From positions 992,001-1,056,000 of the forward strand of contig NZ_CP093362.1 in assembly GCF_023380225.1 (NCBI RefSeq): a stretch of 64,000 nucleotides of DNA, given 5' to 3'. Made by a program: the position numbers and the translations under genes. The notes beneath the pieces were generated by a model. That model saw nothing but the letters and a program-made list of their open reading frames with translations, did no database searches and had not been told where the DNA came from. Source of the DNA: Apilactobacillus apisilvae. GTDB taxonomy: Bacteria > Bacillota > Bacilli > Lactobacillales > Lactobacillaceae. Shown here piece by piece: positions 5,144 through 59,490 of the stretch (the first letter of the stretch is position 1; every line of letters starts with the position of its first letter).

Positions 5144-5741
5144 AATCACCTCTAACACCTTCTAGCCCTTCACTAAAAATAAAGTAAACTAATATCAGCG
5201 CAGCGACCGAATCTGCCCACCATAGACCAAATAAAGCATTCAAAACAACACCTACTAGGACAGTTCCAGCAATATAAGCACAAGTAACATTACAATAACT
5301 ATCTTCAATTAGTGCTTTTGAATTCAATGCTTTACCGTATTGACGCTTTTTAATAATAAAGAATGGCATTATTATCAAAGATAAAATTGCGATTATAATA
5401 CCTGAAAATGAATCATCAGCCACACCATGGCCAAATAAATTCATTAATGAAGTAATCGTTACATAGATTGATAATAAGATTAAAATTATGCCTACCAAAA
5501 TAGAAGTAATTCTTTCAGCCTTTTCAATTGATTCATTAGATGCACCATTAATTTGTTTTTTTAGTCGCCAAATTAACATTGATCCAGCAATAATTTCTAA
5601 AAAACTATCTAAACCAAAAGCAATTAGTAAGATAGATTTAGCCATAATACCTGAATATAAAGCAATTACAAATTCAATTGCCATCCAAGCAGTGGATAAA
5701 TATTCAATTTTAATACTTTTATTTACTAAATCATTCTCCAT
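5142..5741 (-). CDS. Cation transporter (CDF-like), metal efflux candidate
   Basis: A 199-residue membrane protein with about six hydrophobic segments and no obvious C-terminal cytoplasmic metal-binding domain, so it is shorter than classical cation diffusion facilitators. The second segment carries 'FGLDSFLEIIAG', with acidic residues placed as in the CDF TM2 metal site. A later segment begins 'EDSYCNVTCAYI', where CDF proteins have their TM5 metal-ligand region. The start at 5741 (MENDLV) follows a GGGGGGG ribosome site seven bases away and overlaps the end of the ArsR-family gene by 11 bp. Coupling to that metal sensor suggests Zn/Co/Cd efflux; the substrate is inferred. Confidence 0.72.
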   Translation of the reverse strand: MENDLVNKSIKIEYLSTAWMAIEFVIALYSGIMAKSILLIAFGLDSFLEIIAGSMLIWRLKKQINGASNESIEKAERITSILVGIILILLSIYVTITSLMNLFGHGVADDSFSGIIIAILSLIIMPFFIIKKRQYGKALNSKALIEDSYCNVTCAYIAGTVLVGVVLNALFGLWWADSVAALILVYFIFSEGLEGVRGD

Positions 5742-15182: not shown

Positions 15183-15218
15183 ATTATTTGTTGAGTTGAT
15201 AACGACTTACATAGATTT

Positions 15219-15291
15219 GGGCAGTTAGCTCAGTTGGTAGAGCAACGGACTCTTAATCCGTGGGTCCAGGGTTCGAGCCCCTGACTGCCCA
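15219..15291 (+). tRNA. tRNA-Lys (anticodon CTT)
   Basis: A full cloverleaf: acceptor GGGCAGT/ACTGCCC, D-arm AGCTCAGTTGGTAGAGC, anticodon stem ACGGA/TCCGT with loop CTCTTAA (anticodon CTT, reads AAG), and T-arm CAGGG-TTCGAGC-CCCTG. CCA is not encoded; the 73rd base is A. It marks the left edge of the accessory region. No second copy of its 3' end was found in the window. Confidence 0.97.
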
Positions 15292-15301
15292 TAACTGATA
15301 T

Positions 15302-15349
15302 AAAAGCTATTGTAATAAGGACATTAAATCCTGTTGTAATAGCTTTTTT
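15302..15349 (+). terminator. Terminator after tRNA-Lys
   Basis: AAAAGCTATT and AATAGCTTTTTT form the base of an imperfect long hairpin ending in a T-run, 10 bp after the tRNA. Confidence 0.7.
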
Positions 15350-15440
15350 CTTTGTTATAAATATAATATAAACACATATAACTAATTTAAATGGTAACCA
15401 CAAATTTATTAATATATTGTCATGTGGGGCGGGATGACTA

Positions 15441-15465
15441 AGCTACTCTATTGAGTGGCTTTTTT
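15441..15465 (+). terminator. Terminator-like hairpin at the start of the non-coding tract
   Basis: AGCTACTC-TATT-GAGTGGCT (one G-U pair) is followed by T6. No recognisable gene precedes it. Confidence 0.5.
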
Positions 15466-15486
15466 ATTTTGTATAAAAATAGAAAA

Positions 15487-17093
15487 TATTTGTAAAAAGT
15501 TGAACATTTTTACAAATAGCTTATTTTTAAAATACCTTTTATTGCTATTATATAGACGTTTAAAGTAATTATAATGATCTAATAACTTAATAAAAGTTCA
15601 ACTTTTTTCAACCTTTTTAGATAAAAATATGTATATAAGACTCACAAAATACCTTAATTGCAGTATTTCACATTTTTGTGAATAACGTAGCTCTCAAAAT
15701 CAATAAAGAATAATATAACCAGTCTGCCCTATTTAAGGGTCAACCAAAATTAATCGCTTGCCCTAATTTAGAGAAAGCCCATGATATTAGTTATTTAGGT
15801 GCCCTATGTTAGGGCTATCGCATTAAAACAACGTTCAAAGCTCAATGTTTAGCCCTGATTATTGTACAGCTCAAGACTGAGCTCGTTAGGTAATATTGAC
15901 CTTATCGTTGGTTCATACTATCAAAAGTACTAAAACAGTACTCTAGGTCTTAAATACATGCTATAAAGTACGTTGTTGTCTACTTCTCATTGGTATAGAT
16001 AAGCGAAACCACTTTTGGTTTGGGCTAACGGACGCAATTTTGCGTCGGGCTATTCATAATTAACTAATTTGTTAAACAAGACAATAGCAATAAACTAAAT
16101 AACAATGTATTATGGGATTATCCAACATAATTCATATGTTTACGATTCATTGGCTACTGGTTTAATTATCAGTAGCTTTTTTTAGTATCTAACAAGCCAA
16201 TTTAATTCCGCAGCTAAAATTAAGGGGGTGGAGATTTGGCACCCCGCTAATTATCGACCCCCTGCGTACCTATTTTGGGCACATAGATAAAAATATATGA
16301 GGAGTAACTATTCGTTCCTACCTACCGTATTCCACATTTTTGAGGATAACCTGTAAAAGTACGTAGTTATGGGCTTGTTCTATTTTGGAATAATCCAATT
16401 AAGGAGTGTCTAAAACGGACACCCCTTTAATAATTACAATGATCCATAGAACTAGGTAGCAAAGTACGACCTAGAATAACGATTCGTTCTCCCAGTTGCC
16501 CATTTGGGGAACTTGGTAAGGAGTATGTAACTTAAATACACCCTAATAAAATACAAAGGGGGTCTCCATTTTGGTGACCCCTTAATACAGTCGTAAAACA
16601 CGACACAATTACATAAAATCAAGCCGTAATTATCCGTAGTAAAAGTTGCATTCATGTATGCACTCATATATTTAATGTATACACAAATAGAAACCTATAT
16701 AAAGGCAATCATGGTCAATATATTAAACAGTTGCACCTAAAATTCAAACGAGGTTTATCGCTATTTTTATGTATGCAATGAAGTACCAATTTAGTACCCC
16801 ATTAAAATTACTAAAACGGACAACAACAAATTATCAGAAACCCATTTAGGATTATGACTAAAACTACAAAGGACAAAAATGTCCGCCACGATATAAAATG
16901 GGTCTGCTCAATTTTACGCATACCCACATAAACATTAATCTAATAGCATTCTGACCGTTTCTTGATTATCCAATAACGGTGAATTAAACTACTTTGAATT
17001 ATACAAAAACAGGCTGGCTTAATTTTCAGCTACCCTATGGCAACCAACTGGCAACCAATAGCGATATAAATTCTGATAACGCACTTTTGCGTT
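15487..17093. other. Hairpin-rich non-coding tract between tRNA-Lys and the toxSAS-Panacea pair
   Basis: About 1.6 kb without a believable gene on either strand. It holds many short inverted repeats with small A/T-rich loops: 12-bp arms at 15487-15518, and arms of 5-8 bp at 15667-15682, 15801-15815, 15869-15882, 15926-15942, 16006-16021, 16031-16046, 16225-16245, 16401-16427, 16452-16474, 16496-16513, 16558-16581, 16590-16604, 16647-16662, 16871-16884, 16954-16980 and 17078-17093. Several stems are GC-rich (GACGCA/TGCGTC, GCCCTA/TAGGGC), unlike the flanks. A few such hairpins are expected by chance. It may be a structured RNA, a DNA-level element, or decayed mobile DNA. Confidence 0.5.
16153..16183 (+). 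terminator. Terminator-like hairpin inside the non-coding tract
   Basis: GCTACTG and CAGTAGC pair around a 10-base loop and run into T7. It would end a plus-strand transcript covering the first half of the tract, if one exists. Confidence 0.55.
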
Positions 17094-17159
17094 TTCTAAA
17101 TTAATAAACAAAAAGGCATACTCAAAATTGAATACACCCTTTTATATTTATATAAAATT

Positions 17160-17858
17160 TTAGTTACCTATTTTCTCAACATTATGATACTTTAATATAT
17201 CACTATCTGAAATACGTTTATTTAGCCCTTTTACATAATTTTTTTGCCATGGGGACCCATTCTTATGTGTAAGATCTATTAATTCCTTGGTACTTTTATT
17301 ACCATATATCTTTATAATTTTTTCTAATGAAGAAAAAATATCATTGGAATTATCAGAAAACAATAATTTGTCAATTGATTCATTTATATTTGGTAAATCA
17401 GAACGAATGCGACAATATCTAGATTTAGGTTCAACTGGTCCATATTGCCATGCATCAAATTTTTGTGGAAATAGACTTTTGTGAGTCATTTCTAAAAAAT
17501 CAGAATAAACAAAGTATAATAATTTTTCCATTTTTTTAAAGTCTGAAGAAAATCCTATCTTACCTAAAAGATAACTACAAATATCTGATGATGAGATTTT
17601 TGTTTCTTTAGATAGAAATTCACCAAATTCATCAATATTCTCAATACATTTTACATTAGAAAAATAAGGATCCATATCAATAACAGAAGACCAACTTGCA
17701 TAATCTGTAGATAAAACATGCGTACTTATTTCATAATTAGAAAATCTTTCAAATATATCATTATGGTGTTTTTTTAATAACTCGACATTTGAAGATGAAA
17801 AATGGTAAGCAAAAGGTTCTTTATTGCGTAATTTAACCAGTTCTATTAAATGAAACAT
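17160..17858 (-). CDS. Panacea (DUF4065/SocA-like) antitoxin, partner of toxSAS
   Basis: A 232-residue protein. The first ~95 residues are an unrecognised N-terminal region. The rest matches the Panacea domain: 'MEKLLYFVYSDFLEM...FDAWQYGPVEP' (W-x-Y-GPV core) and 'KELIDLTHKNGSPWQKN' (TH...PW signature). Panacea proteins neutralise many unrelated toxins, with the variable extra region giving specificity; small alarmone synthetase toxins are among the known partners. It lies 50 bp downstream of such a gene, with its own ribosome site AAAGGTGGGG. It is a cytoplasmic antitoxin by family knowledge; the pairing is inferred from adjacency. Confidence 0.82.
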   Translation of the reverse strand: MFHLIELVKLRNKEPFAYHFSSSNVELLKKHHNDIFERFSNYEISTHVLSTDYASWSSVIDMDPYFSNVKCIENIDEFGEFLSKETKISSSDICSYLLGKIGFSSDFKKMEKLLYFVYSDFLEMTHKSLFPQKFDAWQYGPVEPKSRYCRIRSDLPNINESIDKLLFSDNSNDIFSSLEKIIKIYGNKSTKELIDLTHKNGSPWQKNYVKGLNKRISDSDILKYHNVEKIGN

Positions 17859-17907
17859 TTAATCCCCACCTTTCTAGAGATAGATTAACATAAATAATTT
17901 ATTTTTT

Positions 17908-18525
17908 TTAGTACTTAGTTCTATTTTTTTCATGTTTAGAATGTTCTTTTTTATTATTTTCAACTGAATTTGGATCCCATAATTGTATTTCCCAAGGAAA
18001 GTGCTTATTATCATCTTTTAAATAAAAATGAATTGCACAATAACTACTATTAGACTTATTTTTTATATAAGGTCTGTATATGTTACTAAAAATTGTATTT
18101 TTTAGTTCTTCTAAAAACTTTATATAGTCATCTAAATTATTATTTAAGTCGTATACTAAAAATCTAACTCCAACAAGATCATTAATTGACTTATTTACTA
18201 TAACTTTTCCATGTGTTTTAGGATTAGATATATATTGAGAAATTTTTTCATGAAAAGAACCTAAGCTTTTTACTCTTGATCGAATACGTTTTTCAATTAA
18301 TTGAATCATACAATCATCCAGAGAGTGATTAGACATAAATTTCATATATTCAATAGCTTCTAATAGAAACTTTGTAGAACTAGAAGCTTCAATTAATTCT
18401 AGTTTTTTATAATTCATTGAGCTATGAGTACCGCTTTTATAATAAATTGAAGTCAACTCATTATATGTTTCATTAACTAGTTTAATAATTTGTTTTAATT
18501 CAGTTTTATTTTGTACTGTAAACAT
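17908..18525 (-). CDS. Toxic small alarmone synthetase (toxSAS) of a Panacea toxin-antitoxin pair
   Basis: A 205-residue protein with a RelA/SpoT nucleotidyltransferase fold: 'RIRSRVKSLGSFHEK' (R84, K86), 'INDLVGVRFLVYD' (D116, G119, R121), 'YCAIH' (Y162, H166), 'WEIQLWD' (E179, Q181) and a late 'KEH' (H195). There is no hydrolase, TGS or ACT domain, so it is not the housekeeping Rel. Known toxSAS enzymes either make (pp)pApp or attach pyrophosphate to the tRNA 3' CCA end and stop translation; which applies here is not visible. The start follows GGAG eight bases upstream, and a TATAAT (minus strand, 18554-18559) lies just upstream. The antitoxin gene follows on the same strand. Confidence 0.85.
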   Translation of the reverse strand: MFTVQNKTELKQIIKLVNETYNELTSIYYKSGTHSSMNYKKLELIEASSSTKFLLEAIEYMKFMSNHSLDDCMIQLIEKRIRSRVKSLGSFHEKISQYISNPKTHGKVIVNKSINDLVGVRFLVYDLNNNLDDYIKFLEELKNTIFSNIYRPYIKNKSNSSYCAIHFYLKDDNKHFPWEIQLWDPNSVENNKKEHSKHEKNRTKY

Positions 18526-18599
18526 ATAATTGCTCCATTAGTATAATAATTTAATTATATCACAGTGAATAAAATAATAAAATAACAGAAAAGCTTAAC

Positions 18600-18713
18600 A
18601 AAAACCTGAACATTTCGGCACCTAATTGAATATAAAAAGTCTTATAAGCGCTATTAAATCAGTACATACAAGGCTTTATTTGTATACTTATTTAAATAAA
18701 AGTTCAGGTTTTT
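18600..18713. repeat. 12-bp inverted repeat enclosing further hairpins
   Basis: AAAAACCTGAAC (18600-18611) and GTTCAGGTTTTT (18702-18713) are perfect complements about 90 bp apart. Inside, AGTA-C-ATACAA and TTTGTATACTT (18661-18691) form a second stem. T-runs flank the outer stem on both strands. It lies just upstream of the toxSAS gene and could be a branched RNA, a bidirectional terminator or a DNA cruciform. Confidence 0.6.
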
Positions 18714-18898
18714 ACAGGTTCTTAATAAAAATAAACTGCTTTTTCAAATGGCACTTCATGATCCAATATATTCAAAACTTATTAATTCTTAATATCAACC
18801 TGAGTATATCCGAGCATATCGGAGTAAATTATGCGAGCAAATGCTAGTAAAATTTCAATCATTTGCCATAAAAATATGTTTATAATTGCAATGATTAA

Positions 18899-19313
18899 CC
18901 CTAACATTTCCTAACAATTTATAGCCTATAAAGTAGCTATCAGCAATGGAAACGATAGTGGAAAAAGTACCGTGAACAGTACGCTAAAAGTTTCCAATTT
19001 GTTCACGCTTTTTGTGTGCACCCATAAATAAAAAAGTATGCACTAAGGTTGCACCTATTATGCACCCTAAAATATGCAACAAATGCAACGCTGTTACGTC
19101 CCACAATATGCTTTAATTCGATCATTCATTAATAACAAAAGCTAACACACAAGCCTATTTTAAGCCTTGACATACCTCAACATTTCTCAACAAATTATCC
19201 TAGTATTTTATCTTAGTAATTATTAGTCATATACCTTAACAATTCTTAACATTTTACTCTAGCAATTCCTAGCATTTTAGATTCATATAACCTTAGCATT
19301 TCTTAGCATTTTA
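18899..19313. repeat. Family of 10-bp-spaced direct doublets (YTNARCA type)
   Basis: Five places carry the same short word twice, exactly 10 bp apart: CTAACA (18901, 18911), CTCAACA (19176, 19186), CTTAACA (19235, 19245), CTAGCA (19259, 19269) and CTTAGCA (19292, 19302). A looser TAGTA pair lies at 19201/19214. The two words of a doublet always share the same variant. From 19175 on, the doublets sit in roughly 58-bp tandem units. Between 19017 and 19089, TGCAMY occurs six times (19017, 19039, 19050, 19061, 19075, 19084). The layout resembles iterons or helix-turn-phased protein sites. No gene is seen in 18526-19437. Confidence 0.65.
18947..19007. other. Interleaved inverted repeats (pseudoknot-capable segment)
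   Basis: TGGAAAC (18947-18953) pairs with GTTTCCA (18990-18996), while CGTGAAC (18971-18977) pairs with GTTCACG (19001-19007). The order A-B-A'-B' is that of a pseudoknot. It hints that the tract is transcribed into a folded RNA, but no expression evidence can be read from sequence. Confidence 0.4.
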
Positions 19314-19437
19314 AATATAAAATTGTCCTTATATTTTGTTACATTTTTCTATGTTTCTGTTACATCTATAAGTAACTTTTATAATAAAATCAAGAATGAT
19401 AACCTAAATATAAGAATTAAATTTATAAGGAGTTATT

Positions 19438-19680
19438 ATGCAAATAAGAAGTATAAGAAAAATAGCAAAATACATATCTATTAGTTACTTAATCATCCCT
19501 TTATTATCAATTCTATTTCCTATATTCAAAGCACCATTACTATTTATATTTATTACTGAAAACATAATATTTACTATAATTTACATGTTTAATATTAAAA
19601 AAATCAGACAAAACAAAAAGCTATGGAACTGCAACTATTATTTTGAACAAATAAATAAAAGCAGCTTTCTAATTATTTAA
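19438..19680 (+). CDS. Small two-helix membrane protein, 3' end altered by IS insertion
   Basis: The reading frame begins with AAGGAG five bases before ATG and codes for two hydrophobic helices (residues about 12-30 and 33-50) ending in a basic tail KKIRQNKKL. At 19625 the IS3-family element starts, and the last ~19 residues of the present frame come from the IS end. If the IS and one target copy are removed, the frame would read K-K-L-F-F-R and stop, giving a 65-residue protein 16 bp before the next gene. It probably formed one unit with the coiled-coil genes at 20949 and 21651. The function is not recognised; size and topology would suit a holin-like, immunity or toxin peptide. Confidence 0.6.
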   Translation: MQIRSIRKIAKYISISYLIIPLLSILFPIFKAPLLFIFITENIIFTIIYMFNIKKIRQNKKLWNCNYYFEQINKSSFLII

Positions 19681-20520
19681 TTGGGCAACTGATTTCCTGT
19701 ACTCTACAGGTGATTGGTTGCCTAATTTTGTTAATATTCGTGTATTATTCCAAAATTTGATATAATTATTCACACACCTAATGGTATCTGCTAAACCTTT
19801 TGGTTTAGCTTGTGTGTATATCATTTCAGTCTTTAGGCTTGAGTGAAATGATTCAATGATGGCGTTATCAGCTGGCGTTCCTTTACGGGACATACTTCTG
19901 ATGGCGCCTTTTTTGCGTGCTAGTTCAAAGAATTCACGTGAGGTATAAGTTGATCCTTGATCACTATGAATAATAGCTCCATCTAAATAACCTAATTGAT
20001 TTAATGTATCTAATGTCAATTTGGTATTTGGATGATTAGAAATTTTATGAGCAATAATTTCTGAATTAAAGCTATCCATAATTGTAGAAAGATACAACAT
20101 TCTATTTCCGCAAGGAATATAGGTGATATCAGTTGTTAATTTACGCTTAAGAAAATTAATTGCCCAATCACGATTGATTATATTTTCGAATTGTTTAAAT
20201 GGATTGCCAGGTCGATGAGATCTTTTACGTTTAATACGACAACTCCAACCATACTTAGCCATAATTCTTTGAACCTTACTAACACTACATTTTAATTTTT
20301 TATTAACTAAAGCATGAATTTTACGATAACCATATAAAAACTTCGTTTTTATACATATTTGTTGAATCTCCTGTTCAATCTGACTTAAAGTAAAATTATC
20401 TGCATGTGTTTTATGATAGTAATAAGTACTTCTAGATATATTGAGATACTGACAAATTCTAACTAAAGGTATTTTGGATGTGAAAGTATCGATTAATTTA
20501 ATAGTAGCTTGATTTACCAC
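19669..20520 (-). CDS. IS3-family transposase OrfB (DDE integrase core), copy 1
   Basis: A 283-residue frame. The N-terminal HTH_21-like region 'YLNISRSTYYYHK' and 'YGYRKIHALVNKKLKCSVSKVQRIMAKYGW' precede the integrase core. The core has D in 'LTTDITYIP', D in 'IIHSDQGSTYTS' and E in 'DNAIIESFHSSLKTEMIY', giving an intact DDE triad. It opens at GTG (20518-20520), overlapping orfA. An A7 run in orfA (about 20540-20546) is a likely -1 frameshift site that would produce the OrfAB transposase. It appears functional, unlike the copies at 51 kb and 58 kb. Confidence 0.93.
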   Translation of the reverse strand: MVNQATIKLIDTFTSKIPLVRICQYLNISRSTYYYHKTHADNFTLSQIEQEIQQICIKTKFLYGYRKIHALVNKKLKCSVSKVQRIMAKYGWSCRIKRKRSHRPGNPFKQFENIINRDWAINFLKRKLTTDITYIPCGNRMLYLSTIMDSFNSEIIAHKISNHPNTKLTLDTLNQLGYLDGAIIHSDQGSTYTSREFFELARKKGAIRSMSRKGTPADNAIIESFHSSLKTEMIYTQAKPKGLADTIRCVNNYIKFWNNTRILTKLGNQSPVEYRKSVAQLNN

Positions 20521-20819
20521 AGCCCTTCCATGATTAAATATTTTTTTATAACTTCAAGTTCTTCCTTCATTTGTTTAATTTCCATATCTTTTCTGACGTC
20601 ACTAGGTAGTTCTAAATTGCCTTTATTATATTTATATTGTTTGCCAGGCTTTTGATTCAAACGATAATAATCACCATTTCTTACATATTTCCGCCATGTA
20701 TAAATTAAGCCGTCACTCTTTAAACCAAGTATTTTACAAATCTTTCTACCAGGAATACCTTCATTAAGAAGCCGAACGGCTTCTAGTTTAGTTTCATATG
20801 AATATTTATTATTAGTCAT
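20514..20819 (-). CDS. IS3-family transposase OrfA (helix-turn-helix), copy 1
   Basis: 101 residues. 'YSYETKLEAVRLLNEGIPGRKICKILGLKSDGLIYTWRKYV' is the HTH that binds the terminal repeats. The C-terminal 'KDMEIKQMKEELEVIKKYLIMEGLW' is a leucine-zipper-like helix. It starts after GGAGGTG and overlaps orfB by 7 bp. Confidence 0.92.
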   Translation of the reverse strand: MTNNKYSYETKLEAVRLLNEGIPGRKICKILGLKSDGLIYTWRKYVRNGDYYRLNQKPGKQYKYNKGNLELPSDVRKDMEIKQMKEELEVIKKYLIMEGLW

Positions 20820-20948
20820 ACAAAAAACACCTCCGAATTATATTATTTTACCAAATTAAAATAATACTTTTATCGAAAGTGCTTTTATTTATCTGTTCAA
20901 TATTATAACTTCAGTTCCTATTTTTTCGATAAACAAAATAAAAAAAAT

Positions 20949-21563
20949 ATGGAATTAGAGAATAAAGAGCATAAAGACAATATAAATGCTGGCTTTGCAC
21001 AGAGCTTTTACATTTACCAATATGATGATTTAAAAAAGATAAGCAAAGATTTAATATACACACGTAAGGATATATATAATATAAAAGAAAAATTGATTAA
21101 TCTAGAAAGAACTTTAAATCCAATAATAATGCATATTATTAATACAGAATCAAAAACTACTGAAAGAGAAAAATTAATAGCCAGGCATAATCAATATGAC
21201 GAACAAAGTAACACTATAAAGATTCAAATGAAAGAATTAGAAAATATAACAATAAAATCTATGGATACATTTTCAACAATAAAAGATACACTAGAAGTAT
21301 CAGATATAGATTATAAAAATCTATTAATTTCATTTATAAATGGTTTAATAGAAGATAATAAACGTCTAAAAATGTCATTTTACAAAAGTTATAAAATTCT
21401 AGAACAGCAAGACAAAGAAATTATAAATAATAATCTAGATAGAAATTTCGAAAGTATAGAAGTAGATTTAAAAGACATAGATTGGTATTATTCAAAGTGT
21501 ATAGATAAAATAAATGAAATTAAATCAGAGATTAAAAATAGTCATATAAAATCAAGTAAGTAA
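20949..21563 (+). CDS. Unknown soluble coiled-coil protein
   Basis: A 204-residue, lysine- and glutamate-rich protein with no signal peptide or membrane segment. Long heptad-like stretches occur at about 30-60 and 70-110, and acidic-basic helices continue to the end. No family is recognised. The ATG at 20949 lacks a ribosome site. Before the IS arrived, the upstream small membrane gene would have stopped 16 bp away, so translation may have been coupled to it; the IS may have lowered expression. ATA codons are heavily used, unlike housekeeping genes in the window, which suggests acquisition from elsewhere. Confidence 0.6.
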   Translation: MELENKEHKDNINAGFAQSFYIYQYDDLKKISKDLIYTRKDIYNIKEKLINLERTLNPIIMHIINTESKTTEREKLIARHNQYDEQSNTIKIQMKELENITIKSMDTFSTIKDTLEVSDIDYKNLLISFINGLIEDNKRLKMSFYKSYKILEQQDKEIINNNLDRNFESIEVDLKDIDWYYSKCIDKINEIKSEIKNSHIKSSK

Positions 21564-21650
21564 TTAATCTAATTAAGTAGCGTTTATAAAGAATTTAGTA
21601 CTTTTAATAGATATACTACTAAAATATAAATAAAAGGTAAGATATATTAC

Positions 21651-22244
21651 ATGTCAATTATAATAAATATAATAATAACAATAATAACACTATGTATTAG
21701 TCAATATTCAACATTTTACATAATGACAAAACGGGTAGAAAAGGACAGACAAGAAAAAATTAGAGAAGATAGGATTGAGAATATTAACGATATTTGTTTT
21801 AACTTATCATTAGCAAAACAAGAAATGTTTCAATTAAAAAATAAATTATTAAATTTAGATAGAAATATTTATTTCTATAATAAAAAATTAAATAAAAATA
21901 TTGATGAGATGTTATCTATTTCAAAAAAATTACCAAAAATAATTTCAGATATTAATGAAATTAGCAATGATACAATAAAACCAATAAATCATATTCAGTT
22001 TGCATATGATAAATTAAAATATACACATATAGATCTTCCATTTGTAATAAATGACAATATAAGATCATGTATTTTCGAATTATATGAAATAAATGATATT
22101 AATCATGTAATAGATAAAAGTTTATATTCAATAATATATAATTATGAAAATAATCAATTCTTTAATACTTCTTACATATCCAACATTTCATATATAGAAA
22201 AACAGTGTGATGAAATAATTAGTTTTATAAGTAAAAATAATTAA
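21651..22244 (+). CDS. Unknown membrane-anchored coiled-coil protein
   Basis: 197 residues. One N-terminal membrane helix (residues 2-25) is followed by a basic, charged segment (KRVEKDRQEKIREDRIE) that would stay in the cytoplasm, then by helical, coiled-coil-prone sequence with many Asn/Ile/Lys residues. AAAGGTAAG upstream supports the start. It follows the 204-residue coiled-coil gene by 87 bp on the same strand and shares its ATA-rich codon use, so the two may be partners. No known domain was recognised. An inner-membrane effector plus soluble partner would be one reading, but this is speculation. Confidence 0.6.
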   Translation: MSIIINIIITIITLCISQYSTFYIMTKRVEKDRQEKIREDRIENINDICFNLSLAKQEMFQLKNKLLNLDRNIYFYNKKLNKNIDEMLSISKKLPKIISDINEISNDTIKPINHIQFAYDKLKYTHIDLPFVINDNIRSCIFELYEINDINHVIDKSLYSIIYNYENNQFFNTSYISNISYIEKQCDEIISFISKNN

Positions 22245-22424
22245 TCTTATAACAAAATTAATGTTAAACATTTAATTTATAAACTAAAAAATAACTAAAA
22301 TAAAAAGGTATGATTCAAATAATTATAGAAGTAATTTTTCACATCAAATCATATGATTAAAAGGCATTTTCCACTGCCCTTCATAAATTAAATACGAAAA
22401 AGATAAAAGTATTATTTTTTATTT

Positions 22425-22803
22425 TGTAGCACTTTTTTATTTTTCTGCTACACGTCGACAATATAAGTACTAGCATAGATCAAATTATATTGTAGCAGGT
22501 CATAATCATTAAGTACTACAGATGTAAAGATTGATATAACAACAACCAATAACATTTTGTAGTAGATGTAGCAGGTATTTTTAACTTCTTCTATATATTA
22601 CATACTCATATTATAATCAAAATGTTTCTACACGTTAGATGTTAATTTTATGTACTACAAGTACTACATTATTAAGCTAAGTGCTTATATAACAATATAT
22701 AATGGATGTAGCAGATAATAATTAAGCCTGCTACGTTAATAGCAATTATGATTGATATAACAATAATTATAAAGATTGTAGTACTTTTTACATTTCTGCT
22801 ACA
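22425..22803. repeat. Mirror-symmetric array of TGTAGYA sites
   Basis: TGTAGYA or its complement TRCTACA occurs exactly eleven times: plus orientation at 22425, 22491, 22558, 22567, 22707, 22777; minus at 22446, 22514, 22653, 22662, 22797. Near-copies are at 22729 (TGCTACG) and 22626 (TTCTACA). They form six modules: four inverted pairs 20-23 bp apart and two direct doublets 9 bp apart in opposite orientation. Module midpoints (about 22438, 22505, 22565 | 22660, 22721, 22790) are symmetric about 22613 to within roughly 1 bp. A 12-bp direct repeat TTGATATAACAA also occurs at 22531 and 22752. There is no gene in 22245-22860. Confidence 0.85.
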
Positions 22804-22860
22804 AAATGACATTGAAAAAAATAAATATTAAATTAAAATATAATTAGGAGATGGTTATAT

Positions 22861-23397
22861 ATGAAAAAATATTATAGATTGTTATTATTAAGTTTAAGTT
22901 TTATTACGTTGCTTTTTACATTCCAGAGTTTCAATGCACATGCATCTCATTTAAAATATCTTAATAAATTTCCTAATGAAATAAAGGGAACATGGTATAC
23001 ATATACTAATGATAGTGGGTTAAGTAAACATAAAAAAATAGAAAAAATGGTTGTTAATAAGAAAACATTCAATTTTCATCCTTATCGTAAACATGATGTT
23101 ATAGAAGGAGCAAATTTAACAAAAAAACAAGAAAATGAACTTAATAAAACTTCTAGATGGTCATACGCAATGGAATTTAACTATAAGGGGCATAAATGGT
23201 TTAATTTCATGGGATGGCAACAAGGAGCAGGTGATGGTTCATTCTTCAACATCCATAATTTTGACGGGCACAAGGTATTAATGAGCGCTGGTGGAGCAGG
23301 AATCAGTGTTGATGGTCAATATTATAAGAGCAAAACTTTGGCTAAAAAATTTAGTAATAAAAGATTTAAAGGATTCAATTACTATGATAATTATTAA
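22861..23397 (+). CDS. Small secreted protein of unknown function
   Basis: 178 residues. The signal peptide is residues 1-28 (MKKYYRLLLLSLSFITLLFTF...NAHAS, cleavage after A-x-A/S). The mature part begins 'HLKYLNKFPNEIKGTWYTY', a 'P..IKGxW' opening seen in many lactobacillar secreted proteins of lipocalin-like character, and ends in an aromatic, glycine-rich region. It is preceded by a good ribosome site (AGGAGATGG) and by the TGTAGYA array. The protein at 23515-24063 opens in the same way, so the two may be distant relatives. No enzymatic motif is visible. Confidence 0.72.
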   Translation: MKKYYRLLLLSLSFITLLFTFQSFNAHASHLKYLNKFPNEIKGTWYTYTNDSGLSKHKKIEKMVVNKKTFNFHPYRKHDVIEGANLTKKQENELNKTSRWSYAMEFNYKGHKWFNFMGWQQGAGDGSFFNIHNFDGHKVLMSAGGAGISVDGQYYKSKTLAKKFSNKRFKGFNYYDNY

Positions 23398-23445
23398 TTA
23401 AACAACTTTAATATAAACAAGGATAAAACCTTTGTTTCGCAAAAG

Positions 23446-23476
23446 TAAAGGCAGTAGAAAATCGCTACTGCCTTTA
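23446..23476. terminator. Hairpin between convergent secreted-protein genes
   Basis: TAAAGGCAGTAG and CTACTGCCTTTA form a perfect 12-bp stem with a 7-base loop. The T-run after it is weak. It could serve both convergent genes. Confidence 0.65.
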
Positions 23477-23514
23477 TTTGCTCAAGTAATTATAAGATCA
23501 ATGTTTATAATACA

Positions 23515-24063
23515 TCATTCCAAAATTTCACCATGTATTCTATTAAATTTTCCTAGATAAGTCCATTTATGAAAAGCTGGTTCATATTTATTACCCTTTA
23601 TCCAGATTTTCAATAAGTTTTTACCAACATACTTAATAGAATAAATTGATCTGTTTGGTGCATCCTTAGTAAATTTAGTTGAACCTTTTACAAGATATTT
23701 ATTATGAGATAATACTTGATATATAGGTTCAGTAGCAACTCCTCTAGCATCGTTAGTAACCTGACGATAATTATACTTAGACATGAAGCCCATAGGACCC
23801 TTGGAAGAATATTTATGTTGTAATCTTGCAAGCACGGTATATCCAAGATAACTTTTATTTATTAATACAACAAATTTAACAGGAACTTTTTGGACTTTAG
23901 AATATGTATTTTTTCTTTCATAGCCACTTCTCCAATTACCTTTAATAGTACTAGGTATTCCTTTATTCCATGTTGATGCACTGGCATTTAAAGATGATAT
24001 CGAAAAAACAAATATAAAAGATAATAACGCAACTAAGTATACTGATACTTTCTTAAAATTCAC
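23515..24063 (-). CDS. Small secreted protein of unknown function
   Basis: 182 residues from GTG at 24061-24063. A longer in-frame extension to 24165 exists, but the signal peptide begins here (VNFKKVSVYLVALLSFIFVFSISSLNASAS) and GAAG lies eight bases upstream. The mature protein opens 'WNKGIPSTIKGNWRSG', like the neighbour at 22861. Its later part is rich in Lys, Tyr and Trp. It probably acts outside the cell. No known catalytic motif was found. Confidence 0.7.
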   Translation of the reverse strand: MNFKKVSVYLVALLSFIFVFSISSLNASASTWNKGIPSTIKGNWRSGYERKNTYSKVQKVPVKFVVLINKSYLGYTVLARLQHKYSSKGPMGFMSKYNYRQVTNDARGVATEPIYQVLSHNKYLVKGSTKFTKDAPNRSIYSIKYVGKNLLKIWIKGNKYEPAFHKWTYLGKFNRIHGEILE

Positions 24064-24224
24064 TACAAAGACTTCTTTCTTTTGATATAAGTACATAATA
24101 ATACTAATACTCTCTATACACAAAAAGCACTCAAAATGAGTACTTAAATCGACACCTGTAAACAAATTTACTGCAAGAAGTTGATGAGTATTCTCAATAC
24201 AATAACAAGTGTTATCAATATATA

Positions 24225-24248
24225 AAGCCTGTCTTGTCCTAGCAAGAC
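24225..24248 (+). terminator. Left part of a terminator split by the IS at 24249
   Basis: AAGCCTGTCTTG (24225-24236), loop TCCTAG, then CAAGAC (24243-24248). The rest of the 3' arm, AGGCTT plus the T-run, lies beyond the IS at 25664 onward. Joined, they form a perfect 12-bp stem with a T-rich tail. The IS duplicated AGAC from inside the arm. Confidence 0.8.
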
Positions 24249-25659
24249 TGAAGTGAACCCCTAAAGTGAAACAACACTTTAGGGGTTTTTGTATGACAAA
24301 ATTTAGTTTTGAGTTAAAGAAAAAAATAGTTAAAGAATATTTTTCAGCAGGAATTGGTTCTACTAGTCTTGCTAAAAAATATAATATTAAAAGCAGAACA
24401 ACTATTTTAAATTGGATTCATATGTATAATGCCTTCGGCATTAAAGGATTAATTGTCAGGCACCCAATCAAAGTATATTCTGGATATTATAAACGAAAAG
24501 TGCTGCATTGGATGCACACTAACCACAGTTCGTATCCAGAAACAGCACTTTTCTTCAACATATCAGCCCCAAGTACCATCTTTGCTTGGGAGCGAAGATT
24601 GGAGACTAAAGGCCTAACTGGATTATACACTAATCGTGGCCCTAAAAAAATGAAATCAAATAAAACTAAAATTAAATCACCTAACAAGTCATTAAGAGAA
24701 AAAGTTAATTATTATCTAATCAATTATCGTTATGAACAAATAAAACAAGAATGTGGATCTACTATGGATCACATAAAGAAATTGATTACTTTCTTTAAAA
24801 GATTTTCTATATCATTCATTTTAAAAAGTATCGGTATAAGTAGAAGTTATTATTATCGACATTTCAAAGAAGATGATAAAGATGATAACTTAAAAAAGAT
24901 GATCACTAAAATAAAGCATTTTAATCCTAATTATGGGTATCGCCGTTTAACCTTAGCTTTAAGAAATAACAACGTAGTTGTTAATCATAAAAAAGTATTA
25001 AGGATAATGAAAACATTAAATTTAACGACCAATCAATATAACAAAAAAAGAAGAAAATATAATTCTTATATTGGACAAGTTGGACATATAGCCAAAAATA
25101 GGATTCATAGAAAATTTAAAACTGATCGTCCTTATCAAAAATTAACAACTGACGTCAGTGAATTTAGATATGGTAATCAAGATATAAATCACAGGGTTTA
25201 TTTATCACCAATTATGGATCTATTTTCTGATGAAATATTAAATTTTTCCATTAGCGAACATCCAAATGTCGACTTTACTATTAAGCCAATGAAAGAATTG
25301 ATTAAAAAATTACCAAAATTAAGCTATAGAACCACCGTCCATAGTGATCAAGGCTTTCAGTATCAAAATAATAAATGGCAAAAATTATTAAAGAATAATC
25401 ACATCTTTCAATCCATGTCCCGTAAAGGGACATGTCTAGATAATGCACAAATGGAATCATTCTTTCATATCATGAAAATAGAAATTATGAGTAATCATTA
25501 TGAAACAAAGTCTTCATTAATTAAAGCGATGAAAAAATGGATTAAATATTATAATAATTATAGAATTAAAACAAAACTAGGAGGTAAAGCTCCGAAAGAA
25601 TATCGGAAACTTTACCTCCTAGAAAATAAATAGTTGTTTCGATTTAAGGGTTCACATCA
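24249..25659 (+). mobile_element. IS3-family (IS150-like) element with fused transposase, inserted in a terminator
   Basis: The ends read TGAAGTGAACCCCTAAA (left) and, inverted, TGATGTGAACCCTTAAA (right). The 4-bp target duplication AGAC is at 24245-24248 and 25660-25663. It encodes one long transposase. A related but distinct element has left fragments at 50371-50752 and around 50 kb. Confidence 0.92.
24293..25633 (+). CDS. IS3/IS150-family transposase, single fused frame
   Basis: 446 residues. An N-terminal pair of HTH regions ('FSAGIGSTSLAKKYNIKSRTTILNWIHMY' and 'YPETALFFNISAPSTIFAWERRL') is joined in frame to a DDE integrase core: D in 'LTTDVSEFRYG', D in 'TVHSDQGFQYQ', E in 'DNAQMESFFHIMKIE'. 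Most IS3 relatives need a -1 frameshift between OrfA and OrfB; here both are in one frame. The ATG at 24293 with AGGGG seven bases upstream is preferred to a GTG at 24266. The frame looks intact. Confidence 0.9.
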   Translation: MTKFSFELKKKIVKEYFSAGIGSTSLAKKYNIKSRTTILNWIHMYNAFGIKGLIVRHPIKVYSGYYKRKVLHWMHTNHSSYPETALFFNISAPSTIFAWERRLETKGLTGLYTNRGPKKMKSNKTKIKSPNKSLREKVNYYLINYRYEQIKQECGSTMDHIKKLITFFKRFSISFILKSIGISRSYYYRHFKEDDKDDNLKKMITKIKHFNPNYGYRRLTLALRNNNVVVNHKKVLRIMKTLNLTTNQYNKKRRKYNSYIGQVGHIAKNRIHRKFKTDRPYQKLTTDVSEFRYGNQDINHRVYLSPIMDLFSDEILNFSISEHPNVDFTIKPMKELIKKLPKLSYRTTVHSDQGFQYQNNKWQKLLKNNHIFQSMSRKGTCLDNAQMESFFHIMKIEIMSNHYETKSSLIKAMKKWIKYYNNYRIKTKLGGKAPKEYRKLYLLENK

Positions 25660-25891
25660 AGACAGGCTTTTTTATTTTTTCAAAACTTCCGAGTCTTTAT
25701 ATTAGACTTATTTTTACATCGTAGTATATTAAATCGTGCAAGATATTTTGTATATAAAAACAACGTTGTCCTTGCATTTTAAGTTGCTATCACAACAGAT
25801 ATGAAAATTATATATCTAGTCATACATAGTCTTTGTATTTCAGCATATCTAATTCCCTCATTTTCTCAGCATTCAAGGAAGAAGGATTTTT

Positions 25892-27401: not shown

Positions 27402-28385
27402 TTAATCCACTAAATTCATTGTCACTAATTTGTAGTTGAATTTTTCATTAGTTTTACTACTATTCTTAACCTTGTCAGAATTCTTTTGTTGATATGAGTT
27501 ATATTTAACATTTGCATTCACAGTCTGGATTCTTGTGATTACCATTTTTTTGCCTGAGTTTAATAAATATTCTTTTTCATTCTTACTCTTAGAAATAGAG
27601 TTGATGTATGCTCCATGGTATCCAGCTGGAACATTTAATTTAATAAGGATGTTATTATTTGCATTCTTTTCACTACTGTTTAAAAACTTCACAGCTGCAC
27701 TTTGATCAACACTAGTTGATTGAAATGCTGCATCAGAATAAACCGATCCAACTTGATTTTTTTGACCGTTTAATCCTTTAGAATAACCAACACCGTTTAA
27801 GCCACGGTAGACAGTCATTGGTTTTTTCAAATTAAACTTCTTTAAAGCAGCTTGAATATTTTTCACTTCAGCTTTGGTCTTGGTAATTTTTTTAGATTTT
27901 CCTGTACGTAGATAAGTATTATCGTTGTTATATCCAGAAAGACTGTAGTCACCAACAGCTTTATATTGGGTCTTACTTAATCCTTTTGACCACTTAGCTC
28001 CTTCAGCATATAAATTATCATAATCTTTCTTACTATAATAATAGCTCTTATTTGGATAAGAAACACTATTAATATTATTAACTTCTAAAGTTGCAGAATT
28101 ACCAGGAATAGTTACTAATCTGTTATTGCCATCTTTAATCGTCATAACAGTTCCCTTTTTAATCGTAACTTGATTGGAACTATTCTGTTCATTAACAGTT
28201 AAATCTTGGTTAGCTACTCTTTGAGTAACCGGCGCATCAGAAGTATTAAAATTTGATTCCTTATTAGTCACAGTAGATACATAATTTGTATTATTTTTTT
28301 GTTTGGCATTAGCAACTTGTCCAGATGTAATTGTAAAACCAATTGCTAAAGTCGACAAAAGTGTAATTAAACTTGCACGTTTCAT
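27402..28385 (-). CDS. Secreted ADP-ribosyltransferase (ADPrib_exo_Tox family)
   Basis: 327 residues. The signal peptide is 1-27 (...GQVANA). A ~100-residue N-terminal region of unknown fold is followed by a catalytic domain with all three landmarks of R-S-E class toxins: R194 in 'TVYRGLNG', S223-T224-S225 in 'DAAFQSTSVDQ', and the E270-x-E272 pair in 'SKNEKEYLLNSGKKM'. This class moves ADP-ribose from NAD+ to a protein; an E-x-E pair usually marks arginine as target. No translocation partner is next to it. GGGGGAAAATT precedes the ATG and its own terminator follows. The target cell (host, phage or rival bacterium) is unknown. Confidence 0.83.
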   Translation of the reverse strand: MKRASLITLLSTLAIGFTITSGQVANAKQKNNTNYVSTVTNKESNFNTSDAPVTQRVANQDLTVNEQNSSNQVTIKKGTVMTIKDGNNRLVTIPGNSATLEVNNINSVSYPNKSYYYSKKDYDNLYAEGAKWSKGLSKTQYKAVGDYSLSGYNNDNTYLRTGKSKKITKTKAEVKNIQAALKKFNLKKPMTVYRGLNGVGYSKGLNGQKNQVGSVYSDAAFQSTSVDQSAAVKFLNSSEKNANNNILIKLNVPAGYHGAYINSISKSKNEKEYLLNSGKKMVITRIQTVNANVKYNSYQQKNSDKVKNSSKTNEKFNYKLVTMNLVD

Positions 28386-58339: not shown

Positions 58340-59191
58340 CTAATTATTTAATTGGGCAACTGATTTCCTGTACTCTACAGGTGATTTGTTGCTTAATTTT
58401 GTTAAAATTCGTTTATTATTCAAAAATTTGATATAATTATTCACACACTTAATAGTATCTGCTAAACCTTTAGGTTTAGCTTGTGTGTATATCATTTCAG
58501 TCTTTAGGTTGGAGTGAAATGATTCAATGATGGCGTTATCAGCTGGCGTCCCTTTACGGGACATACTTCTGATGGCGCCTTTTTTGCGTGCTAATTCAAA
58601 AAATTCACGCTAAGTATAAGTAGAACCCTGATCACTATGAATGATAGCACCACTTAAATAGCCTAATTGATTTAGTGTATCTAATGCCAATTGGGTATTT
58701 GGATGATTAGAAATTTTATGAGCAATAATTTCCGAATTAAAACTATCCATAATTGTAGAGAGGTACAAAATTTTATTTCCGCAAGGAATATAAGTGATAT
58801 TAGTGGTTAATTTACGATTTGGTAAACTAATGTTCCAATCACGATTAATTATATTATCAAATTGTTTGAACGGATTACCAGGTCGATGAGATCTTTTACG
58901 TTTAATACGACACCCCCAATTGTATTTAGCCATAATTCTTTGAACTTTACTAACACTGCATTTTAAGTGCTTATTAATTAGTGCATAAATTTTACGATAA
59001 CCATATAAAAACTTTGTTTTTATACATAGTTGTTGAATCTCCTGTTCAATCTGACTTAAATTAAAATGAGCTGCATGTGTTTTATGATAGTAATAGGTAC
59101 TTCTAGATATATTGAGATACTGACAAATCCTAACTAAAGGTATTTTGGATGTGAAAGTATCGATTAATTTAATAGTAGCTTGATTTACCAC
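58340..59191 (-). pseudogene. IS3-family transposase OrfB, copy 3, broken by a stop codon
   Basis: Relative to copy 1, the Ser codon in 'SDQGSTYT-S-REFFEL' is TAG (58608-58610). This splits the frame into 193 residues (58610-59191) and a downstream piece (58340-58564) that holds the catalytic Glu region. Several other substitutions are present. Confidence 0.9.
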
Positions 59192-59490
59192 AGCCCTTCC
59201 ATGATTAAATATTTTTTTATAACTTCAAGTTCTTCCTTCATTTGTTTAATTTCCATATCTTTTCTGACGTCACTAGGTATTTCTAAATTGCCTTTATTAT
59301 ATTTATATTGTTTGCCAGGCTTTTGATTCAAACGATAATAATCACCATTTCTTACATATTTCCGCCATGTATAAATTAAGCCGTCACTCTTTAAACCAAG
59401 TATTTTACAAATCTTTCTACCAGGAACACCTTCATTAAGAAGCCGAACGGCTTCTAGTTTAGTTTCATATGAATATTTATTATTAGTCAT
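59185..59490 (-). CDS. IS3-family transposase OrfA, copy 3
   Basis: 101 residues, near-identical to the OrfA at 20514-20819. The HTH and C-terminal zipper-like helix are intact. It can only make the regulatory OrfA product, because orfB here is broken. Confidence 0.9.
   Translation of the reverse strand: MTNNKYSYETKLEAVRLLNEGVPGRKICKILGLKSDGLIYTWRKYVRNGDYYRLNQKPGKQYKYNKGNLEIPSDVRKDMEIKQMKEELEVIKKYLIMEGLW

Follow-up and report, generated by a model that had tools for sequence, protein, structure and literature searches.

PICI/SaPI replication origins are described as two sets of iterons that flank an AT-rich region just 3′ of a helicase gene (PMC6092414, PMC7581432). One of these reports also describes the SCCmec helicase Cch2, which recognises short direct repeats downstream of its own gene via its C-terminal domain (PMC7581432). 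In S. thermophilus, an origin-like element of phage Sfi21 is reported to give phage resistance (PER), an effect that is described as dependent on copy number (PMC6356513).

We analysed a 64,000-nucleotide stretch of the Apilactobacillus apisilvae chromosome (the window), in which an interval between genes holds an array of the short word TGTAGYA. Like the PICI/SaPI origins as these are described, the array consists of two opposed sets of short iterons around an AT-rich segment, so that the initial annotation, which had found no named element with this architecture, has to be amended; an origin of an integrated element was nevertheless among its candidates and is the one that fits best. The window differs from PICI/SaPI elements in its iteron, TGTAGYA, and in that searches for a rep/helicase gene, an integrase and a right att site found none. 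Its array does not lie immediately 3′ of an initiator gene, and the integrase and flanking att repeats of a complete PICI are missing, whereas the sister genomes G008 and G013 have all of these. Short direct repeats are also a feature of the putative Cch2 origin as described, which differs from the window in its 5-nt AAGTG iterons, in its helicase and in the presence of the partner gene. As with PER, a bare phage origin would reside in a bacterial host, but here in one chromosomal copy and with a resistance effect that is hypothetical. We conclude that the array is very probably a replication origin of the type found in PICI/SaPI elements and VapE phages, orphaned in a decayed satellite at a tRNA-Lys gene. 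An orphan origin of this sort is a known kind of element in an unusual state.

Eleven exact TGTAGYA words lie within 379 bp (22425–22803), compared with nine more across the rest of the 64 kb, a density outside the array of 0.054 per 380 bp. In 5,000 dinucleotide shuffles of 22250–22860 the mean was 0.33 words and the maximum 4, in agreement with the initial estimate of fewer than one word by chance, although TGTAGYA was chosen as the test word post hoc. Since the total for the whole window is ordinary (20 words; shuffle mean 15.7, with 19 of 100 shuffles reaching 20), it is the clustering of the words that makes the array unusual. Among exact 7-mers with at least two G/C, TGCTACA/TGTAGCA is joint top in the window with six copies in 400 bp, a count shared by CTGCTAC, which belongs to this array too, and by CAATTGA at 5524. 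The interval is free of genes, as had been proposed, with no ORF of at least 60 aa in 22245–22860, and the array is present as a single chromosomal copy in the genome. Its modules, taken from the word list, are as follows.

22425–22452 (words at 22425 and 22446), unstranded: outer left inverted pair, TGTAGCA words
22491–22520 (words at 22491 and 22514), unstranded: inner left inverted pair, TGTAGCA ... TACTACA
22558–22573 (words at 22558 and 22567), plus strand: left direct doublet, TGTAGTA-GA-TGTAGCA, 9 bp period
22574–22652, unstranded: central segment of 79 bp, 78% A+T, candidate unwinding region (putative role)
22653–22668 (words at 22653 and 22662), minus strand: right direct doublet in the opposed orientation, 9 bp period
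22707–22735 (words at 22707 and 22729), unstranded: inner right inverted pair, second word imperfect (CGTAGCA)
22777–22803 (words at 22777 and 22797), unstranded: outer right inverted pair, TGTAGTA ... TGCTACA

The two opposed direct doublets with a 9-bp spacing are thus found where the initial annotation had placed them. Of its four inverted pairs, three are exact on both sides; the second word of the fourth, at 22729–22735, has one mismatch to TGTAGYA and constitutes a twelfth site. Spacings are 9 bp within doublets, 20–23 bp within pairs and 44–48 bp between modules. The mirror symmetry of the modules was likewise confirmed: all 12 sites (10 of the 11 exact words) have a mirror partner on the opposite strand no more than 2 bp off, compared with an average of 4.9 (4.3 for exact words) when the gaps were shuffled, and none of 1,000 shuffles scored as well. 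However, the outer modules are alike in direct and not in inverted orientation (22402–22437 versus 22754–22789, 72%), indicating that the mirror order is one of modules and not that of one long inverted repeat. Direct likeness is also seen between 22434–22452 and 22785–22803 (89%) and between 22491–22506 and 22707–22722 (88%). The A+T content of the central segment is barely above the 76% of 22400–22830.

The layout of the array recurs elsewhere. With a loose pattern (+ − +; one pair at 17–27 bp and one gap of 27–57 bp, no 9-bp doublet required), at least 118 loci were obtained from a collection of genome contigs and at least 120 from a viral one, and among the matches listed many have 6–12 words laid out like the window array. 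In 35 distinct arrays among these matches, 93 of the 147 same-strand spacings were 8–11 bp, 21 of 57 plus-then-minus spacings were 23–27 bp and 31 of 53 minus-then-plus spacings were 41–50 bp; four loci that are regular repeats (L038, L141, L209 and L255) were left out of the spacing and symmetry counts. One of them, in Paenibacillus glycanilyticus (L038:4105–4373), consists of tandem TGTAGCA-N11-TGCTACA hairpin units every 61 bp and is unlike the origin arrays. A strict core pattern, in which two direct doublets face each other across 62–92 bp with 28 fixed positions, was found in 12 viral contigs, which we count as three sequence groups since ten of them are alike around the core. The same pattern with a permuted word matched two viral contigs. 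This control is not a pure null, since both contigs show the same facing-doublet layout with a word of their own, GTATGCA (L286:3030–3128 and L287:4299–4397).

The initial annotation had proposed that clusters with these spacings be sought in relatives. Facing doublets and spacings do recur in viral contigs, but within the family the strict core was found in the window's own genome only (1 of 397; reversed control, 0). The three-word pattern (+ − +) was rejected as a guide within the family, where it matched at chance level (5 of 301 genomes versus 5 for the reversed control); beyond the array itself, its matches comprised one with letters identical to those of a parA-like region of A. ozensis, two groups of three words, and sites that look like operators. 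DNA similarity searches with 22250–22860 (E 0.01) gave matches in 33 of 100 genomes, the window's own included; those in the other 32 are all short and weak (best, 28 bp), and none of these loci has a TGTAGYA cluster of three or more. There was no DNA match in the plasmids or phages searched. Strict mirror symmetry reached p ≤ 0.05 in 8 of 34 distinct arrays with at least eight words and is strongest in the window. The features that recur are facing doublets and spacings rather than near-perfect mirror symmetry.

Many of these arrays adjoin helicase genes. Among the matches listed, a VapE/D5-like primase-helicase gene lies within 1 kb of 31 of 59 loci with at least six words and of none of 68 three-word loci, as counted with search profiles whose seeds included proteins encoded at some of the counted loci. 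By number of words, the counts among the matches listed are 16 of 27 (at least six), 6 of 13 (five), 3 of 35 (four) and 0 of 43 (three) for genome contigs and 15 of 32, 1 of 14, 1 of 48 and 0 of 25, respectively, for viral loci, L255, with 27 words, being the only one of the four regular repeats outside these bins. About half of the loci with at least six words, among the matches listed, have no such helicase within 1 kb. The contrast is weaker in a third scan for one doublet facing one word, in which, among the matches listed, a helicase was near 3 of 23 new loci with at least six words and 0 of 29 three-word loci. When neighbouring proteins were compared with Pfam, eight of ten had VapE-like, PriCT_2, Prim-Pol, BT4734_N or DUF3987 domains and the other two were terminases. 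A Leucobacter protein ∼1.2 kb from its array (L152) has DUF5906 and Pox_D5 domains, with D5_N just below the cut-off. VapE was present in 5 of 12 loci searched as whole records; all five are among the nine core-pattern contigs searched, and the four of these without VapE are records of 6–23 kb.

Arrays built from other words accompany VapE in phages. In 8 of 13 named VapE phages, one word occurs 7–10 times on both strands within 400 bp, a level that 0 of 65 shuffles reached (seven or more copies); the remaining five had no such word cluster. The array immediately follows the helicase gene in the two Streptococcus phages SMP and Javan399, in Paenibacillus Bob, in Latilactobacillus TMW 1.1397 P1 and in Flavobacterium lotta8-1, whereas Flavobacterium mumin6-4 has one more gene between the two; the arrays of Escherichia ECO1230-10 and of Vibrio 1.009.O are elsewhere and not behind the helicase. 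These arrays resemble that of the window in a word of ∼7–9 bp, 7–10 copies and the use of both strands, and doublets are seen in the Bob and lotta8-1 sequences. They differ in their words (TTGCAGT, TGATGTAAC, TTAGTGTA and TGGAACA) and in their position just downstream of the helicase, whereas the window has no phage replication gene alongside; their origin function is putative. Named VapE phages were rejected as users of TGTAGYA itself, since in all 13 there were never more than two such words close together. Two-strand word clusters of at least five copies were also found in 19 of 30 Lactobacillaceae VapE loci (0 of 300 shuffles), in one of which (L301) opposed TGTGAG doublets stand on either side of AT-rich DNA; TGTAGYA itself never exceeds two neighbouring copies in any of the 30 loci. 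The clusters in these loci (L288–L317) are of various 7-mers, and matching each word to the C-terminus of its helicase could reveal the specificity of the enzyme. Sequence comparison thus suggests that phages, too, have arrays of this sort and that TGTAGYA recurs across several phyla, the array loci among the matches listed spanning 30–67% G+C; the window locus has 24%. In the open-access literature, the word was not found together with a replication origin and phage, nor with iteron.

The array resides in an island, the features of which are listed here.

15218–15292, plus strand: tRNA-Lys (ctt), the 3′ end of which is repeated at the far end of two sisters' insertions (attachment site)
15293–25671, unstranded: island, from tRNA-Lys to the flank of the Mn-catalase gene, absent in sisters G010 and G009
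17160–18525, minus strand: Panacea (antitoxin) domain gene and RelA/SpoT domain gene (Pfam)
19669–20819, minus strand: IS3-type transposase orfA/orfB, assigned by eye, between the G008-homologous left part and the array
20949–22244, plus strand: two genes, of 204 and 197 aa, which matched only themselves among 5.8 billion proteins searched
22861–23397, plus strand: 178-aa protein, predicted to be secreted (by eye, N-terminus), where the helicase gene would lie
24266–25633, plus strand: IS3-type transposase gene, assigned by eye, ending beside the right chromosomal junction

In the near sisters G010 and G009 the Mn-catalase gene follows tRNA-Lys after ∼320–330 bp, which defines an empty site, and the window carries some 10.4 kb of additional DNA between tRNA-Lys and the Mn-catalase flank; homology to the G010 empty site resumes at 25672. 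WalR was found in all 16 genomes of the genus and its flank was compared in 7 of the 15 sisters; four (G003, G005, G013 and G015) had no catalase match within the sequence piece compared. A second copy of the tRNA-Lys end (11 bases or more) was looked for in the window island and not found, nor was a right att repeat. The Panacea and RelA/SpoT domain genes are likely a toxin–antitoxin pair. The 178-aa protein has one relative (67%). Right of the array there are two genes for predicted secreted proteins and then the second IS3-type element. The copy at 19669–20819 is related to one at 58610–59490, which has a shorter transposase frame.

When ORFs of seven sister loci were compared with the window island (tblastn, E 1e-3), no helicase or integrase match was obtained, and no VapE, D5_N or DUF5906 family (PF05272, PF08706, PF19263) was found at E 1e-3 in the whole genome, which is estimated to be 98% complete. 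No phage structural family was detected among six island proteins with Pfam or five with PHROGs. Two further contigs of the window's genome, C2 (42.7 kb) and C3 (38.6 kb), are phage- or phage-plasmid-like as judged by eye from their ORFs (L325–L329); they were rejected as resident partners of the array, having at most two TGTAGYA words close together. Outside the island, a gene at 27402–28385 (minus strand) codes for an ADP-ribosyltransferase exoenzyme domain (PF03496, E 1.9e-24) in a protein predicted by eye to be secreted, and relatives of it are present at the same place in G008, G009 and G010.

Two sister genomes carry more complete elements at this site. G008 and G013 both have an insertion at this tRNA-Lys, at the borders of which at least 14 bp of the tRNA end are repeated, and each insertion contains a tyrosine integrase (PF00589), a primase-helicase and a Rha-regulator-like gene (below the Pfam cut-off in G013); none of nine satellite proteins matched a structural family in Pfam. 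In both, the array is directly behind the helicase gene, as in PICI/SaPI elements, with the word TGTTACG in G008 and GTGTACC in G013. Read from the core, the G008 layout is ++ (9), 91, −− (9), 43, + 24 −, compared with ++ (9), 86, −− (9), 45, + 22 − in the window, whereas G013 follows the window's layout in part only, with one doublet and four single words. In a comparison of AT-rich DNA searched without a filter, five collinear segments connect the window island (16119–19624) with the G008 satellite, the first ∼180 bp after the tRNA are 77% identical, and the further matches are two that are short and off the diagonal and three that repeat the ∼19.2 kb region. The Panacea-domain gene is common to both (tblastn E 5e-4). 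Since the window's word differs from those of the sisters, the array and the left part of the island may derive from different elements.

Our reading is based on the array, its recurrence beside helicases, and the satellites of two sisters, which occupy this tRNA and have an array following the helicase gene. Since only the sisters have the array next to a helicase gene, we call that of the window an orphan of origin type and not a working replicon; neither a helicase gene nor the remains of one were found in the island, so that the partner is one that we infer. In a complete element, a self-loading primase-helicase of the VapE, D5 or DUF5906 type would be encoded directly beside the array and would recognise the TGTAGYA words, its C-terminal domain probably making the contact. 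Two helicase rings would assemble on the facing doublets and melt the 79-bp AT-rich centre between them, and replication would start there, with the flanking inverted pairs serving as possible extra loading sites. The window island presumably once carried such a helicase, and since no matching one was found in the genome, the origin should now be silent.

Several other explanations were considered. The orphan origin might be kept as a natural decoy that either titrates out the initiator of infecting phages or is itself fired by such phages and so lowers phage yield, as happens with cloned phage origins in dairy bacteria, which we regard as unlikely; on the same account, equally unlikely in our estimation, the host lineage would have kept the intact origin together with the toxin–antitoxin pair after the loss of the satellite's replication and integration genes, the benefit being that it captures or misfires the helicase of phages using the widespread TGTAGYA word. 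Eleven of the 12 words are intact even though the searches for a helicase, an integrase and a right att site were negative, a likely toxin–antitoxin pair is in the same island, and the Sfi21 element as reported provides a precedent (PMC6356513). However, a recent loss of the helicase accounts equally well for the intact words, the single chromosomal copy contrasts with the copy-number dependence described for PER (PMC6356513), a search of 16 genomes of the genus gave no prophage that carries this array, and padloc gave no match among five island proteins. It is less likely still that the array is a used origin of a helper-dependent satellite, to which a phage gives the helicase in trans so that the island replicates upon infection. 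The nearly intact array and the satellite-like island would be in keeping with this, but the sister integrases gave no match in the island, its right end showed no att repeat and two IS3-type copies lie within it; excision is not expected.

That the array serves a regulator of the 178-aa protein gene as its operator or partition site, or is a set of integrase arm sites, is in our judgement very improbable. The gene begins 57 bp past the array and the inverted words look operator-like, as do palindromic TGTAGTA sites beside a regulator-like gene in G057 (by eye), whereas arrays elsewhere often adjoin primase-helicase genes. These G057 sites, TACTACA-N3-TGTAGTA (L320:1501–1562), lie between regulator-like genes, again by eye, and are operator-like and not origin-like. 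Arm sites are not the rule either and were rejected, since an integrase-like motif (broad regular expression, within 3 kb) is near only 8 of 88 listed loci with at least five words. The structured RNA that had been listed among the initial candidates can be given hardly any credence: both strands fold better than shuffles (z −3.3 and −3.7), but the gain is about equal on both, as inverted DNA repeats would give, and Rfam had no match in 22200–22900 even at E 5.

Taken as an orphaned origin of the PICI/SaPI and VapE-phage type, the array gives a place to a striking non-coding pattern that an earlier reader could not name. It also provides a rule for finding others: two doublets of a single ∼7-bp word, each with a ∼9-bp period, that face each other 60–90 bp apart near a VapE/D5-like helicase gene. 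Orphan origins would serve as a test bed for natural phage decoys.
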